This document shows, piece by piece, positions 11,720 to 23,862 of a stretch of 36,593 nt of DNA. The DNA lies in assembly GCA_016178625.1 (NCBI GenBank), contig JACOSX010000101.1, forward strand, positions 1-36,593. The letters are read 5' to 3'. Positions within the stretch are counted from its first letter, which is position 1. Every line of letters starts with the position of its first letter. Below the pieces are notes generated by a model, which did not search any database, was not told the DNA's origin, and worked only from the letters and a program-made list of their open reading frames with translations. This stretch comes from Ignavibacteria bacterium. GTDB lineage: Bacteria; Bacteroidota; Ignavibacteria; UBA10030; SZUA-254. The position numbers were made by a program, and so were the translations under genes.

Positions 11720-13618
11720 CTACGTGAAGGCTCCTTGACTGCCAAGTGCCGGCACCCTGTTGAGAGATATGGCAAACTCTTTCTCAAGATCATACTGCTT
11801 GCCGTGAACGGTTCCGCGCCCATTCGCAATTGTAAGCTTTCTGTTTCTCACATCGGCTTGCCATTGTGAGGGGACGACTTCGGACCGTCGATTCGCAATG
11901 ATGATCATCTTCCGTACCTGCGCTTCGTCTTCGGAAAGTGTAGAGGGGATCGCTAGATAGTCGTGACGGATTTTTTCTCCAGCGCCATTTTTATCCACTT
12001 TCCCGTTCTGCACATTAATATCAAACATCAGTGCGACGCCTCGTTCAGTGAGCAGCTCGAATCGTCTGCAATTGTCGAGTGCAATCTCGTATCGTACTTC
12101 TGTCGTCTTCACCTGTAACGCGATCATTTCTGAAGACTTGCCGAGAGCGTTCAGTGCATTCTTCCATTTGTCAACGAGATACCAGATTGTTCGATTGTTG
12201 ACAACCTTCGTTAGTTGGATGTTCTTTGCCCATTCCACCTGCTCGTCTTTCGAAGAGTCCAACATCTTCACAAATTCATCATACAGATCACCCATGATCT
12301 TCTTGAGGGTATCATTGCGTTTGGAATCGTCGCGCATCGCTTTCCATAGTGGCTGGAGAGAACCCTGTCCGAGGTTCCACTGCAGCGCGCCAAAACTTAT
12401 TCCCTGTCCGTCGAAATTGCCGGCAACGCTGCCGAAGCAATCCGGATATCCGAGGCTTGTTTCGAACGACGCGGTCAACGCGAGGACGCGCGAAGCCAAT
12501 GGCATTTCAATGGGTATCTTCTGTGAGATTGGTATGATCTTGCCAAGAACATCTTTGGCGGTCTCGAGGATATTCGTAACGCGGATGTCCGAAGCCAGTG
12601 ATGCGATCGCAGGGCGCTCATTGGGAGGATCCTCTTGAGAAGGACTTGGTGGAACCGAAGGCGTTGAAGGCGGCAGCGATTCCTTTGTGGGAGCCGGGCT
12701 TGATGGCGTCGAGGGTGTAGCAGGTGAAGCTGGCTCTACTTTTGTGGCGGATGGTGGACTCGCAGAGCGCCCAGCTCTAAGGGCTTCGACTGCGCGTGAA
12801 CCAAAGTAAAATGCCAACACCATTTCCAGTGCGGTGATGAGACCGTTGTAATGTTTTTCGAGATCAATCGGGGATGAGAGATTGACTGCTTCAATCAGTA
12901 AGAACATCACGAGTGCCGTCAGCGCCAGTGTCCCGCGTATCGTTCCGGGAGGCAAGCCAAAAGAGTCGGACTCATAGGGGTTCTTCGGTGGTTCACTAAA
13001 AGGTGTAATTGCCGGTGCTTCAGTCTGATCTGCTGATCTGGTCTCGGAGATCACTTGATCTGATTTTGCAGCGATGAGGTCTGAGCGAATCTGGGCAAAC
13101 GTCTTGAAACCGAATCGGCCCTTGACAACCTGATCGAAGAGTCGGTCGACTGAAGATTCATACGCTTCGGGATACAATATCTTCCACTCTCGATTTGAAA
13201 GTCCATAATTGTGGACGTACCGATGGATTGCCCAGATGTAATAAATGACCACGAGAAGGAGCCAGGCAAAGAAAGCACCGAAAGCATATCGAGCTCTACG
13301 ACTGTATTCTTCATTCGTTTTGAAGTCCTTCACGAGCGTCAATGAATCCAACGCGAGTTTGATTTTCAGGTCGGTGATGATCTTGTTGAGCGAATCTGAA
13401 CAACATTTCAGGTACGACGGAACTGAAGTTCGGGGAGAAGTATCTACCGGACTTTCCTTCGGCTTGTCGGCTGTGCCTTTACGTTGGATAACGGATGTTG
13501 TTGACTTGCTTGAGCCACCAAAGATTTTTGGCGAATCACTCTCTGTTTGTGAATAAATCTGAGATGGTATTACCGTACATGTGACCAAAAGGAGGAATCC
13601 CACAGTGCGAAGGTTCAT
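11720..13618 (-). CDS. Three-TM protein with C-terminal lysozyme/GH46-like domain, function unknown
   Basis: A 632-residue protein. Signal peptide (1-23), TM at ~112-132, and two more TMs (~226-248 and ~258-276) bracketed by GLPPGTIRGTLAL and AFYFGSRAVEAL, a motif pair I recall from other uncharacterised membrane proteins. A Pro/Ser/Thr linker covers ~285-335. The C-terminal domain from ~370 contains SFETS (Glu386) and FDGQGISFGALQWNLGQGS (Asp403). The Glu-to-Asp spacing and the DGQGISFG motif resemble GH46 chitosanases of the lysozyme superfamily (DGRG motif), so a peptidoglycan or glycan hydrolase is plausible but not proven. The ATG at 13618 follows GGGAG and starts a signal peptide; an upstream extension of 38 codons has neither. 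Last gene of a tight three-gene operon. Confidence 0.8.
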   Translation of the reverse strand: MNLRTVGFLLLVTCTVIPSQIYSQTESDSPKIFGGSSKSTTSVIQRKGTADKPKESPVDTSPRTSVPSYLKCCSDSLNKIITDLKIKLALDSLTLVKDFKTNEEYSRRARYAFGAFFAWLLLVVIYYIWAIHRYVHNYGLSNREWKILYPEAYESSVDRLFDQVVKGRFGFKTFAQIRSDLIAAKSDQVISETRSADQTEAPAITPFSEPPKNPYESDSFGLPPGTIRGTLALTALVMFLLIEAVNLSSPIDLEKHYNGLITALEMVLAFYFGSRAVEALRAGRSASPPSATKVEPASPATPSTPSSPAPTKESLPPSTPSVPPSPSQEDPPNERPAIASLASDIRVTNILETAKDVLGKIIPISQKIPIEMPLASRVLALTASFETSLGYPDCFGSVAGNFDGQGISFGALQWNLGQGSLQPLWKAMRDDSKRNDTLKKIMGDLYDEFVKMLDSSKDEQVEWAKNIQLTKVVNNRTIWYLVDKWKNALNALGKSSEMIALQVKTTEVRYEIALDNCRRFELLTERGVALMFDINVQNGKVDKNGAGEKIRHDYLAIPSTLSEDEAQVRKMIIIANRRSEVVPSQWQADVRNRKLTIANGRGTVHGKQYDLEKEFAISLNRVPALGSQGAFT

Positions 13619-13652
13619 TGTTGTACTCCCGAGGAAAAGTTGAGAAACATTG

Positions 13653-14249
13653 TTATCTGATAAGCAAATAGTCGACGACGGCACCAATGATGAGCCCGAT
13701 ACCCGCTCCCGCCCAACTGAAACTGAAATCACCCTGTGCGTCTTTTCCGATCCTGCCGCCGACTACTCCACCTGTTACGCTGCCCAGCAATCCGCCGGTG
13801 ATCACGCTTGTGCGCTTCACTTGATCGACGTATTCGAGTGCCTTTTCAGTGTTTCGGGTCGATCGCACGACCAGCCCGTCGGCTGATCGGAAATCACTTT
13901 GGAGCAAACGATAGGATGAATCCTGAATCGAGATAATTGTGTTGAGATGTCTGTTAACAGAATCTTTGAGTGCGATGATTGAGTCTCTGAGAATCCGGTT
14001 GAGTCCGTTCAGACTATCAAGTGTGTGATCGACCTTTTCAATCTCGACAAGATTTTTCCAGGCTAAACTGTTGTAGATGATTGCCGAATCGCACTCCATG
14101 ATAAATGTCTGACCATTATAGATTCTCAGCGTCCGCGGTTTGTCGCAGACTGAAAACCCAATTGTGTGTGCGCGAGGACTTTGAGAATATGATTCTGTGT
14201 TGAAGAAAGCGGTAAACACACTGATAAGAAGGACGATTGTACGTTTCAT
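13653..14249 (-). CDS. Exported coiled-coil protein with C-terminal glycine zipper
   Basis: A 198-residue protein of no recognised family. Signal peptide residues 1-22 (ending SYSQ). The middle (~75-150) is hydrophilic and helical, with heptad-like Leu/Ile/Ser spacing (VDHTLDSLNGLNRIL), a probable coiled coil. The last ~50 residues are a Gly-rich, weakly hydrophobic segment (TGGLLGSVTGGVVGGRIG, then AGAGIGLIIGAVV), a glycine-zipper pattern that often inserts in membranes. Two Cys residues sit in the N-terminal half. The ATG at 14249 is preceded by GGGAGAG. The gaps are 35 nt to the upstream gene and 34 nt to the downstream gene, so it belongs to the same operon. Confidence 0.75.
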   Translation of the reverse strand: MKRTIVLLISVFTAFFNTESYSQSPRAHTIGFSVCDKPRTLRIYNGQTFIMECDSAIIYNSLAWKNLVEIEKVDHTLDSLNGLNRILRDSIIALKDSVNRHLNTIISIQDSSYRLLQSDFRSADGLVVRSTRNTEKALEYVDQVKRTSVITGGLLGSVTGGVVGGRIGKDAQGDFSFSWAGAGIGLIIGAVVDYLLIR

Positions 14250-14284
14250 AACTCTCCCTGCTTGCTGGTTAAGCCGTGGAATGC

Positions 14285-14755
14285 TTAATTAAATATTTTT
14301 CCAGGATCCTCTTCGATCTCGCCCCGAAGTTGCTCTCTGCGCTGTTGGGCAGTCTGGATTTGAGTATCGACCGTACGTGAGCGCTCTTCCAACGATGACA
14401 CTTTTTCCTGCAGTCGGTTTATCTCGGTGATCTCCCGGTGAATGCTCTCCCGCCTCCACTCGTCGAGATCTCTTACCTGCTGGCGAAGTTTCTCTAACTC
14501 TGCCTTAATATCTTCATTCTCTTTGGTGATCGCCTTCTCGGTTGAACCATCCCCGAGCAAATTTGAAAAAACACTCTTAACCTTTTCCCAGAGGTATAGA
14601 ATCGGTGCGGCAAACCCAACGAGCCAGAGAGGGAGATTGTTCTCTCTCGCCAACTTGACGGCAAAGTCCTTCACGCCCGGCACGAGGAGAGTAATGGCAA
14701 GCATCCCCCCGAACACTAGAACAAGGATAACCAAGACTTTCCAGAATTTATCCAT
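14285..14755 (-). CDS. Two-TM protein with long cytoplasmic coiled coil
   Basis: A 156-residue protein of unknown family. TM1 at ~7-27 (VLVILVLVFGGMLAITLLV) and a second hydrophobic segment at ~43-58 (LWLVGFAAPILYLW). Then a charged helix from ~75 to 150 with regular heptads (LEKLRQQVRDLDEWRRE, INRLQEKVSSLEERS). The layout is holin-like in size and topology, but nothing proves that. The ATG at 14755 follows AGGA at 7 nt. It is the first gene of the three-gene cassette. A sigma70-like promoter candidate lies 190 nt upstream. Confidence 0.75.
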   Translation of the reverse strand: MDKFWKVLVILVLVFGGMLAITLLVPGVKDFAVKLARENNLPLWLVGFAAPILYLWEKVKSVFSNLLGDGSTEKAITKENEDIKAELEKLRQQVRDLDEWRRESIHREITEINRLQEKVSSLEERSRTVDTQIQTAQQRREQLRGEIEEDPGKIFN

Positions 14756-15069
14756 CAGTTGGTCCTTTCATGTAATCAGTGATGTGGCATGGAATTATCC
14801 AAGGTATCCAACGATAAATTGCATCCCTATAGTGGCATTACTTCACTTGAGAATCTTTTCGAGAACTGCTTCGTGTTCTTAGGTGATTGCAGATGAGAAC
14901 GGGAACAAATTCCCCCCGAATTTCCCATTTCAATCAATTGCCCGCAAAATACGACTTTCAATGACCGAAGTCAAGAAATTTTTTTCTTTTCTCCACAAAT
15001 GTTTTTCATTGCTAATCAAGAGATGTGCTGTGTTTCTGCAATTGTTCTCAGTAAACCACCTGTTCAGTA
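14756..15069. other. Spacer between the cassette and the M49-like gene
   Basis: This 314-nt stretch holds no convincing ORF on either strand. It contains the candidate promoter at 14946-14974 (minus strand) and an A/T-rich tract at about 14975-15010. No terminator of the M49-like gene could be recognised with confidence. Confidence 0.5.
14946..14974 (-). promoter_or_regulatory. Candidate sigma70-type promoter of the three-gene cassette
   Basis: On the minus strand TTGACT (14969-14974) is followed after exactly 17 nt by TATTTT (14946-14951). It lies about 190 nt upstream of the first cassette gene. The match is good at -35 and fair at -10; a long leader would result. Confidence 0.35.
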
Positions 15070-16734
15070 TTACTTCATCGCGGCGAGCGGGAAGTACGGC
15101 TCAATATCAACCGGAACGTTACTGAGCTTTGTAAGAATTGATTGCATTGTCGGGCGGATAACGCCGTATTTCTCCAGTAGTTCTCTTGCACCACTATAAT
15201 TGCCTTCTGCCTGGAGTGTCATGATCATACCCGTCAATTTCTTGACTGCAACTTTGATCCTGCCAAAGTTAACGCTGAATGTTGACGTCTCTTCGTCGAA
15301 GTGAAACGCATCCTCATCAGAGAGGTAGTTGAACTGGAGGGCTGTTCCCTTCCCATGGGATTCATTGATGCCGAATCGCACCGAGCGGAAGATGCCTGCA
15401 AGATACGTAACGTAGAGTTGTTGTTCTAATGACCTTTCTATGACTCCCTTGTCCATCAGGTATTGTAATGCAAATAAGCCGGAGATATCTGCCTTTGCTT
15501 CTTCGAGTGCAGAGCCGAGTTCTTTCATCTCCTGTCGCACAGTTGATGCTTTGCCATTCGCGGTGATAGTGTGAGGTCCGAGTCCGTGCATCAATTCGTG
15601 AGCGAGGATGTGGGTGAAGAACGGTTCAAAGGCGATCATCGATCGCTGCTTCTTGTGCACAGCAATCGATGCAATGGGAACCAGGATTGTATTAAACTTT
15701 GCTTCCTGGACGTTCTTGAGCATCACACGTTTGCTCCCTTTTTCTCGCGTGACCCGCTCGTCGTTCGGTAGATTAAACGCTGCCGTCTGAACACCAGCCC
15801 GCGCTTCACCGCCGATTGCCACCTCGTCGACGACCCGGATGGGTGAAAGTGTTCCCAGTTTAGGGTTTCGGTATTTGGGATCGATCGGCAGGTGATCTTC
15901 AATCTCTTGCAAGTACAACGAAAAATTCTCGAGCTTCTTGCTTTCAGCGTCGTTGCGTATCGAGATGAATGCCTCGAAAGCTGCTTTGTAGTTAAATAAC
16001 TCATCCATGTACACTTCGTAGGGACCAATCGTCGGCTCGATGGGACTGTCGAGATCCATCCACGCAACATCGCTTTCGTAATAATCATTGCTCAGGAAAG
16101 CGTCTGCGCGCTTCGTCAGGAACGCCTTCAGCGTTGCGTTGTCTGTTGCCTCGGCGGCATCGCGAAGGAGTTTCGCTGCGGGCTCGAGCTTGTCTTTATA
16201 TTCGGTGTTATAGGGGTTCGAATACAATCGTCCCTCATCATTCCGCCGGATGGTGTAAAAGAATCCAGTCGCGTTGTTCTTAGAGTCCTCAGGCAGGGAT
16301 GAGATCCAACTGTTGAATTCTTCTTTCGTCATGTCTTCCGGATAATAATTGGCTCCCGGCGGTTTTGTTCTCGGTACGCCTTCAATGAACGGTTCGTCGT
16401 GATCGAGTTTCGACCATGGACCCATGTTGATGAGAAAGTAATGGAATTTCTCCTTTCCTCCTATTGTCGAGTCCTGCCGAAGCTTTTGCAAGAATGTTCT
16501 GTTTCCAGTCCACACTTGACGGATATACAGTGAGTCCATGAGTTTTGCTGCGGCGATCAGCTTGTCGAGAGCAATCTTGTCTCCATCAGAAAGATTGAAA
16601 ACGTTTCCAGAGATCTGTGTCGGGGCGAAGCGTTTTATTTTTCCAGCAAGTGTTGCTGGGGTTTGTTGCGCGATTGCACGTGAGCTTAGTACAAACAGGC
16701 TGGTGAGAATGAGATATCTAATGTAAGATTTCAT
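15070..16734 (-). CDS. Exported M49-like zinc metallopeptidase
   Basis: A 554-residue protein with a signal peptide (1-22, ending AIAQ) related to the dipeptidyl-peptidase III (M49) group found fused to Nudix domains in plants. The zinc site is visible as HELMHGLGP (His379, Glu380, His383) with the third ligand in EEAKAD (411-416). Classical M49 enzymes have HExxGH, while this subgroup has the shorter HExxH form. The family probably cleaves dipeptides, but the substrate of this subgroup is not established. The ATG at 16734 follows GGGGAG at 7 nt. It lies between the PKD-domain gene upstream (114-nt gap) and the membrane cassette downstream. Confidence 0.82.
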   Translation of the reverse strand: MKSYIRYLILTSLFVLSSRAIAQQTPATLAGKIKRFAPTQISGNVFNLSDGDKIALDKLIAAAKLMDSLYIRQVWTGNRTFLQKLRQDSTIGGKEKFHYFLINMGPWSKLDHDEPFIEGVPRTKPPGANYYPEDMTKEEFNSWISSLPEDSKNNATGFFYTIRRNDEGRLYSNPYNTEYKDKLEPAAKLLRDAAEATDNATLKAFLTKRADAFLSNDYYESDVAWMDLDSPIEPTIGPYEVYMDELFNYKAAFEAFISIRNDAESKKLENFSLYLQEIEDHLPIDPKYRNPKLGTLSPIRVVDEVAIGGEARAGVQTAAFNLPNDERVTREKGSKRVMLKNVQEAKFNTILVPIASIAVHKKQRSMIAFEPFFTHILAHELMHGLGPHTITANGKASTVRQEMKELGSALEEAKADISGLFALQYLMDKGVIERSLEQQLYVTYLAGIFRSVRFGINESHGKGTALQFNYLSDEDAFHFDEETSTFSVNFGRIKVAVKKLTGMIMTLQAEGNYSGARELLEKYGVIRPTMQSILTKLSNVPVDIEPYFPLAAMK

Positions 16735-21552: not shown

Positions 21553-23856
21553 TCATTTCACGGTGAGCGTTCGCTCAAAACCGGTCTCGTTGCCTGCATG
21601 GTCTTTCAGTGTAATTGTCACGGAATGCTTGCCACGGTGCAAGGGCTCATCACCTTGATACCATGCGAGATGGTGTTCGCCATCGATTTCTGGAATGAGG
21701 AGCTTATTATCAAGGTACAGTTTTATCTCATCAGGATCAACACCTGAGAGGTTGTCATGGTAGCGAAACGAAATGAAAAGAAATCCCTTGCGAGTCTGGA
21801 CGCGCAATCGTCCAAGCGTTGGTCGTTCATCATCACGAAGAATGGCGAGATCTCCCAATGTGCGATTGAGCGTGGTGGAAAAGGTCTGATGATTCTTGTC
21901 GAGCAGTCCGGTTTGGAAGACCCATGCGCCTCTTGAGCCAAAGTATAAGCCTTGATGGCTGATGTCGCTTTCAGACTTCACTCGCATGGAGACGGTGATT
22001 CCTCTATTCAGAAGGACATCGCTGGGCTCGAGGGAGTAGAAGGTTGACCCTCGGTTGGTCTCGCTGTTGATTTCCATGCAAAGAGGTTTATACACGGCGG
22101 CGGAATCATAGCTGATGTCCAGATTGCCGTGATCGATTGTTATAGAGCCTCCTCGACCTGCGGGGATCGCGATGAGTGAGAAGGAGTCAACCGCTGACGT
22201 CGGTTTACCATTGACTTCAGCACTGACTTGAACGAGGCGTCTGTCTGCGTTCTGGTCGGATGGGACGAACATTCCTGAATACTTGTCCACGTCGATTGCT
22301 TCAAGAGTCACGGAAAGTTTATTCATTCCTTCCTGCACGGAGAGAGATGGTGTTGTTGTGAAGACTCCAGGAGTGGTGATGGTGAATTTGACATGATCTT
22401 TCAACACTTCCGTTGCTATATGAACATCCCTGACTGGACCCTGCGATTTCTTGATGAAGTAGAACACAGGCGCGGATTGCGATCCCCACTTGGTCTCTGC
22501 AACAACCTTGATGACATCGTATGGCTTTGTATTGACGGGCATTTCCATTCCTGAAGAATCAGTCTCCATACGGTCGCGAGTTAGCGTGTGCTGAGACCAG
22601 GATGGCTGAAACGCCCTCTTGCCGAAGACATAGCACTTCGCGATCGATTCCAAGTGATCTCCTGTCAAGACAATGCCATCATCGTCGACGTGATCAAGAT
22701 GAATCACAGGCCGATGGTTTGCGAGAAGCGTTCCGTTTAACTCGCTACGATTGCCGCGGATATCCAGACAAACGATCCGGTAGGTATGTTTGCCTTCAGT
22801 GATCTTTTCAGTATTAATGATTCCCGTTCCAGGTGGTTTATGTTCATAGAAAGGAAGTGTATTTCCCGCGTCGATATATAGTTTTTGAAATTCCCCTCGC
22901 CCTTCGTTGATCGCAGGCAGATCGTAATGGAGGTCGATCTGCTTTGACTCTTCCGCCGGAACGCGATTCAATTCCATCGAATATATCAAGGAATCGTCGA
23001 GATAAAACTCCATCCGATGAATCCCCGCGCGACTGGCTGTGCCATCCGACTTGTCGTCAGCCTCAACGGCAAACCCAACTTGCCCATGAACGCGGATGGT
23101 TTGCGGGATTGTCAGCACGCGCTTGCTCCGGGGAAACCGACTAAAGTATCGTGGGCCGGTGTTATTTTCGACGGACGAATTATATGTAAGTGGTGAAATC
23201 ATGACACGTCTGATGCGTGGAGGAATATCGTCCCGCGCGCCAAACTTCGTGCATAACATAGGATTAATTGGGTTAAGGCTCTCGTCCCGGATTTCAAAAT
23301 GAAGATGCGGAGGACCAAACCCGGTGTCTCCTGTGTAGGCGATGACATCTCCCTGTCTCACAGGCACAATTGATGAATCGAGGGTCAGATCGATCGAATA
23401 CGTTTCACGTCGGTACTGTTCGGCACGTGCCACCCGATTGATCTCCTGGCTAAACGTTTGGAGATGAGCGTATGTACTCACATATCCATCTGCATGTTTC
23501 ACGAACAACATTTTGCCGTAGCCAGTTGGAGTGATTCTGATCCGATAGATGTATCCGTCTCGAACAGCGAACACTTTATATCCTTTTTGTCCATTTGTGC
23601 TAATATCGATCCCTCCGTGAAAGTGGGTGGAACGATACTCAGCAAATGACGACGTGACTTTCGTACTCGCATCGGTGGGCCAGTTATAATCTTGTAAGTT
23701 TGTTCTCACAGTGTCGAAATCGACGGTGTGGACGGTCTTCGCGTGGATCGCATCGGGAGAAGAGCTTCGATCTGCCTTCCCTAGTGGAGAGGTGAAAAAG
23801 GAAAAACTACAAAGGACAGACAGGACAACACTAAAATGTGAACAACGGGTGAGCAT
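21553..23856 (-). CDS. Exported M23-family metallopeptidase with long beta-rich C-terminal region
   Basis: A ~767-residue exported protein. A signal peptide covers the first ~28 residues (SVVLSVLCSFSFFTS). The M23 (LytM) domain at ~60-205 carries the zinc motifs: HFHGGIDIS (HxxxD) and PHLHFEI (HxH), both intact, so it is probably an active glycyl/peptidoglycan endopeptidase. The remaining ~560 residues are beta-sandwich-like (VGFAVEADDKSDGTASRAGIHRMEFYLDD and VDPDEIKLYLDNKLL style), likely Ig-like surface domains. The start is taken as the ATG at 23856; a TTG three nt upstream is also open. It begins 6 nt after the stop of the FAH-family gene, so the two are translationally coupled. Confidence 0.85.
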   Translation of the reverse strand: MLTRCSHFSVVLSVLCSFSFFTSPLGKADRSSSPDAIHAKTVHTVDFDTVRTNLQDYNWPTDASTKVTSSFAEYRSTHFHGGIDISTNGQKGYKVFAVRDGYIYRIRITPTGYGKMLFVKHADGYVSTYAHLQTFSQEINRVARAEQYRRETYSIDLTLDSSIVPVRQGDVIAYTGDTGFGPPHLHFEIRDESLNPINPMLCTKFGARDDIPPRIRRVMISPLTYNSSVENNTGPRYFSRFPRSKRVLTIPQTIRVHGQVGFAVEADDKSDGTASRAGIHRMEFYLDDSLIYSMELNRVPAEESKQIDLHYDLPAINEGRGEFQKLYIDAGNTLPFYEHKPPGTGIINTEKITEGKHTYRIVCLDIRGNRSELNGTLLANHRPVIHLDHVDDDGIVLTGDHLESIAKCYVFGKRAFQPSWSQHTLTRDRMETDSSGMEMPVNTKPYDVIKVVAETKWGSQSAPVFYFIKKSQGPVRDVHIATEVLKDHVKFTITTPGVFTTTPSLSVQEGMNKLSVTLEAIDVDKYSGMFVPSDQNADRRLVQVSAEVNGKPTSAVDSFSLIAIPAGRGGSITIDHGNLDISYDSAAVYKPLCMEINSETNRGSTFYSLEPSDVLLNRGITVSMRVKSESDISHQGLYFGSRGAWVFQTGLLDKNHQTFSTTLNRTLGDLAILRDDERPTLGRLRVQTRKGFLFISFRYHDNLSGVDPDEIKLYLDNKLLIPEIDGEHHLAWYQGDEPLHRGKHSVTITLKDHAGNETGFERTLTVK

Positions 23857-23862
23857 CAAAGG

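Follow-up and report, generated by a model that had tools for sequence, protein, structure and literature searches.

A trio of genes, here designated A, B and C, was identified in the genome of an Ignavibacteria bacterium; the trio is real, recurs in other genomes and is undescribed in the libraries searched. It lies on a 36,593-nucleotide stretch of DNA (subsequently designated the window), which is one contig of a 3.36-Mb genome in 177 contigs, and is present once in that genome. Relatives of the trio were found in genomes G283 and G587, which belong to a second and a third family of the same class. We tentatively propose, at a little less than even confidence, that the trio is a chromosomal, non-phage wall-cutting cassette, in which a membrane chassis is combined with interchangeable muramidases that are tethered inside the cell and act upon opening of the inner membrane.

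Results

Organization and genomic setting of the trio

Genes A, B and C follow one another on the minus strand (positions 14755–11720; Table 1) with gaps of 35 nt between A and B and 34 nt between B and C, exactly as given in a preliminary description of this DNA. For gene C we used the ATG at 13618, which yields the 34-nt gap and a signal-peptide-like N-terminus, while a mechanical ORF call offers a GTG at 13732, inside B, as alternative start. Gene A and the M49 peptidase gene upstream of it are 314 nt apart. The promoter-like site in this interval (Table 1) is a lead only, and a scan for promoters and terminators yielded nothing beyond chance (4 promoter-like sites found, 3.6 expected). The genes flanking the trio in the window are housekeeping genes. 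Recent acquisition as judged by composition was dismissed, as GC, GC3 and codon usage of the trio are like those of its neighbours; A is too short to judge.

The M49-type peptidase is kept in most family members examined, and the genes between it and EF-P vary from genome to genome. A second M49-type copy, 33% identical, resides on contig C104 of the window genome. Another wall-acting enzyme, an M23 peptidase with a bacterial Ig-like domain, is encoded ~7 kb from the trio.

Table 1. Positions of the trio, its predicted parts and neighbouring features in the window.
Feature	Position	Strand	Size or residues	Remarks
Gene A	14285..14755	−	156 aa	Strong TM helix, residues 7–25; second hydrophobic segment, ~42–58; coiled-coil tail
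Gene B	13653..14249	−	198 aa	Signal peptide; exported region; coiled coil; C-terminal glycine-zipper hairpin
Gene C	11720..13618	−	632 aa	Signal-peptide-like N-terminus; TM ~113–131; hairpin ~229–275; Pro-rich linker ~283–337; enzyme domain 373–621
Membrane chassis of C	12728..13411	−	residues 70–297	Homologous region in G283 and G587
GH46-like muramidase domain of C	11756..12502	−	residues 373–621	Catalytic-type residues Glu386, Asp403, Ser408
Promoter-like site	14946..14974	−		TTGACT-17-TATTTT; in the 314-nt gap upstream of A; a lead only
M49-type peptidase	15070..16734
M23 peptidase with Ig-like domain	21553..23859

Predicted topologies of A, B and C

The topologies previously ascribed to the three proteins hold overall, with two caveats. 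One concerns the last TM of C (see below); the other is that the second TM in A stays under the hydropathy cut in the window and passes it in the G283 homolog. Matches of A in Pfam and PADLOC were discarded as coiled-coil artefacts. In B, residues C35 and C53 of the exported region are conserved in G283, and a match to Gly-zipper_YMGG (E 0.0017) remained under the cutoff. Weak B matches in other genomes of the class seem to be exported coiled-coil or glycine-rich proteins of a generic kind. The labels holin-like and spanin-like, which had been suggested for A and B, gained no support: neither protein matched a holin or spanin family, and the signal peptide of B contains no lipobox Cys, so that B does not correspond to the lipobox-bearing outer-membrane subunit of a spanin. 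A and the hairpin of C do have holin-like TM content, yet no holin family was matched.

Hydropathy analysis of the window C protein revealed a signal-like segment followed by TMs at residues 113–131 and 229–247 and a marginal third TM at ~257–275. The hairpin formed by the latter two reads SFGLPPGTIRGTLALT...LAFYFGSRA. Four TMs were found in the C protein of G283; in that of G587, five exceed the cut and the marginal one recurs, making six. The equivalent of the marginal last TM of window C passes the cut in two relatives. Judging from the numbers of TMs (3 after the signal, 4 and 6, with the last TM assigned partly by eye) and from the basic residues following the last helix in each protein, the C-terminus of all three C proteins is predicted to lie on the cytoplasmic side. 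A counter-sign is the presence of basic residues ahead of TM1 in window C, on what should be the outer side. In a model of full-length C, only the enzyme domain is resolved, the TM parts and the linker being of low confidence; a disordered linker of ~50 residues precedes the enzyme.

Small stand-alone membrane hairpin proteins carrying a motif of the type GLPxGSVRxxLAL...FYFGxR, like the C chassis, are encoded at L064:882-1295 and L067:8012-8437, and one of them adjoins a patatin-like gene. Such hairpins apparently represent a wider undescribed module.

The enzyme domain of C is modelled as a lysozyme-superfamily fold closest to GH46

An AlphaFold2 model of the enzyme domain, which was built from a 21-sequence alignment, reached a pLDDT of 92.7 and a pTM of 0.90. 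Foldseek searches against the PDB placed GH46-type chitosanases at all of ranks 1–13 (probability 1.00). Likewise, the top 11 matches in VIA structural alignments were GH46-type chitosanases (Z 10.9–12.9, rmsd 3.8–5.4, 202–213 residues aligned), followed by the effector domain of V. cholerae VgrG3 (Z 8.2–8.4), and Z scores of 5–6 were obtained for pesticin, P1 Lyz and T4 lysozyme. The enzyme-domain profile (A5) also detected PDB chitosanases including 7c6c/7c6d (E 3.6e-4 to 5e-4), and in its alignment to 4ily the Glu and Asp coincide with their counterparts and the Ser with a Thr. The modelling thus provides strong support for a lysozyme-superfamily fold closest to GH46, the outcome on which the earlier proposal of a GH46-like enzyme depended.

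Window C shares with GH46 (PF01374) enzymes such as the Streptomyces N174 chitosanase the fold, a catalytic Glu on the central helix and the D-G-x-G-x-[S/T] hairpin. The motifs SFETS and FDGQGISFG are present as previously noted, and the spacing between Glu386 and Asp403 is indeed 17 residues, as compared to 18 in N174. Catalysis-related residues of N174 are Glu22, Asp40 and Thr45, and its Arg42 is conserved across all characterised chitosanases (PMC3848431). Glu386, Asp403 and Ser408 are invariant in the alignment of 21 sequences; Ser408, at Asp+5, is a conservative replacement for the water-positioning Thr. In contrast, the Asp+2 position, at which the characterised chitosanases have Arg, is occupied by Gln405. 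Window C also differs from GH46 in that it is membrane-tethered and under Pfam detection: C yielded no Pfam match, its enzyme domain gave 0 matches to PF01374, and this family was matched by 3 of the 21 relatives (best 3e-6). The GH46 assignment therefore stands for the fold and the catalytic Glu/Asp pair and falls short at the Arg and at Pfam level, and due to the Arg-to-Gln405 replacement we refer to the domain as GH46-like, not as a proven chitosanase.

Relatives of the enzyme domain occur in phages, and several have peptidoglycan-binding domains

Residues 374–621 of C match phrog_30036 (E 1e-26), and the domain is homologous (~33% identity) to a protein of the Thermus phages phiYS40, TMA and MN1. 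Unlike C, these phage proteins are free-standing and come without A, B and a membrane chassis. Further relatives came from 30 viral contigs, a MAG and another two genomes within the phylum. A published listing of phage lytic proteins includes GH46 domains (PMC8310338). In G203, a Pfam-confirmed fusion joins the enzyme domain to PG_binding_1, and a peptidoglycan-binding N-terminal domain is evident from the sequences of L002, G252 and the Mu-like contig L024. In view of these fusions, peptidoglycan is more likely than chitosan to be the substrate of the C enzyme domain.

The 'peptidoglycan-binding domain containing protein' of phiYS40 and MN1 (L007:5992-6693; L008:5980-6687) belongs to this GH46-like family, and phrog_30036 thereby likely gains a candidate function. 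The PG_binding_1 and GH46-like gene of G203 (L013:9188-10129) is located inside a contractile injection locus, with eCIS_core-type HELTHVVQQ proteins on both sides, one of them Pfam-confirmed.

The trio recurs with an exchanged muramidase

The conserved synteny that had been called for as a check was found completely in G283 and in part in G587. In G283, homologs of A, B and C are present in the same order (BLASTP E 2e-20, 1e-17 and 2e-19, respectively). As this order is shared with another family of the class, the trio is more than a chance arrangement. The C protein of G283 stops after the membrane hairpin and has no enzyme domain. Directly upstream of A, G283 carries a gene encoding PG_binding_1 and an N-acetylmuramidase domain (PF11860, E 2e-63), which has no export signal. 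In G587, an A-like gene carrying a DUF5675 domain, whose resemblance to A is weak and positional (E 0.003), is followed 2 nt later by C, and B is absent. The C protein of G587 has a chassis homologous to that of window C (E 1e-17) and ends in PF11860 (E 2e-48).

Phage muralytic enzymes of the PF11860 (DUF3380) family have been studied (PMC5674055), and the PF11860 domains of G283 and G587 are unrelated in sequence to the enzyme domain of window C. Hence, two unrelated muramidases occupy the same cassette place, either fused to C or as a neighbouring gene, making wall cutting the best-supported function, and a well-supported one. This swap is the strongest indication that the cassette acts on the wall, and it strengthens the wall-perforation role considered in the preliminary description.

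In G283, a ThsB-type TIR gene and a membrane-protein gene (L012:873-1912) are located upstream of the muramidase gene and the trio. In G587, the cassette is immediately followed by two consecutive DUF4230 genes (L060:8207-10827).

The chassis is rare and absent from the mobile elements searched

Among 391 genomes of the class, the chassis profile identified three strong carriers, i.e. G000 (the window genome), G283 and G587. No further carriers were present in order-level samples around G587 and G283 or among those family members of the window genome that were sampled, and in the phylum sample only a stand-alone hairpin matched the profile elsewhere. Matches in G593 and G278 turned out to be stand-alone hairpins and not the cassette, and a match in G483 bore no resemblance to the cassette. 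The neighbouring M49 gene is kept in 12 of the 15 genomes searched, the window genome included, with other genes downstream where examined.

Searches of viral contigs and phage records detected nothing related to A, B or the C chassis, nor was the C chassis found in the plasmids searched. A prophage origin of the trio was rejected on account of the missing relatives in these phage collections and the housekeeping flanks. Taken together, computation establishes the operon layout, the fold and active-site residues, the conserved gene order, the muramidase swap and the lack of the chassis in the searched phage collections.

Discussion

In the proposed mechanism, C would hold a GH46-like glycan hydrolase at the inner membrane via a long flexible linker, accompanied by B, an exported protein combining a coiled coil with a glycine-zipper membrane end, and by A, a short inner-membrane coiled-coil protein. 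The enzyme would be parked on the cytoplasmic face and stay inert, since the wall lies across the membrane. Opening of the inner membrane, either by A, B and the C hairpin or by an insult from outside, would then allow the enzyme to reach the peptidoglycan and to cut glycan strands, resulting in controlled lysis or a large breach. This tethered-endolysin proposal derives from the predicted cytoplasmic C-terminus and the long disordered linker; we infer that peptidoglycan is the substrate, that the enzyme faces the cytoplasm, that A and B open the membrane and that lysis results. Lysis by the cassette appears plausible; the marginal last TM of C in the window and in G587, the missing B and weakly similar A in G587, the lack of a match to holin or spanin families and the restriction to three carriers speak against this model.

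The term type 10 secretion systems denotes non-phage clusters of holin, endolysin and spanin genes (PMC10847048). Like these, the cassette is a compact chromosomal group of membrane-protein genes with a predicted wall hydrolase outside of phages. However, its hydrolase is tethered, a recognised holin or spanin is missing, B is devoid of a lipobox and no cargo gene is known. Therefore, we do not count the cassette among the type 10 secretion systems.

Alternatively, the trio could form an envelope-remodelling complex, in which a periplasmic C-terminal domain of C gaps the wall locally for envelope assembly or growth and A and B serve as scaffold. We regard this as unlikely, albeit worth serious consideration: export seems to be signalled in B and at the N-terminus of C, the gene setting is that of an ordinary chromosome, the C protein of G283 carries no fused enzyme, and C has a marginal last TM. 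If this TM does not cross the membrane, the enzyme would be periplasmic and remodelling would gain weight. However, the topologies of the three C homologs favor a cytoplasmic C-terminus, and the enzymes resemble phage endolysins in their domains (PG_binding_1 plus muramidase, in G283 without export signal). Moreover, secretion or appendage genes do not adjoin the trio, a contractile sheath is found neither in G000 nor in G283, and the rare, patchy spread is ill-suited to a core role in growth.

The same patchiness would be compatible with anti-phage defence by abortive infection, the tethered muramidase lysing infected cells after membrane damage by phage entry or a holin. The sampled relatives that have the neighbouring M49 gene lack the trio, and in G283 the distance from the muramidase gene to the upstream Thoeris ThsB-type TIR gene is ~3 kb. 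Nevertheless, we consider a defence role improbable, as neither B nor C matched a PADLOC component, the matches of A being artefactual, and recognised defence genes are absent beside the trio in the window and in G587.

Even less probable is an antibacterial effector, or one linked to contractile injection, for which A and B would provide release or immunity functions. The enzyme family does occur between eCIS_core-type proteins in G203, and the nearest non-GH46 fold is the C-terminal wall hydrolase of VgrG3, which has a near-GH46 lysozyme-superfamily fold. VgrG3, however, is delivered by a type VI system and no such apparatus is linked here, a contractile sheath being absent from G000 and G283 as stated, and an enzyme tethered to a multi-TM protein is unsuited to export. 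A chitosanase acting on external chitosan, as the closest solved folds might suggest, is the least probable reading, given Gln405 in place of the Arg at Asp+2 (PMC3848431), the membrane tether and relatives that are phage proteins or PG_binding_1 carriers.

Returning to the wall-cutting cassette, it is conceivable, though rather doubtful at present, that it embodies a new design of bacterial self-lysis: a muramidase at the cytoplasmic face on a multi-TM tether, which is released by two partners upon a breach, arose outside of phages and accepts unrelated muramidases. In addition, the comparison links phrog_30036 and the Thermus phage proteins, an unannotated phage family, to the GH46 fold; the active site is unlike the chitosanase pattern. 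Lysis cassettes outside of phages are currently recognised by their holins and spanins, whereas the cassette described here is recognised by an exchangeable muramidase on an unnamed chassis. It thereby points to a class of modules for wall cutting or self-lysis that is missed by current family libraries.
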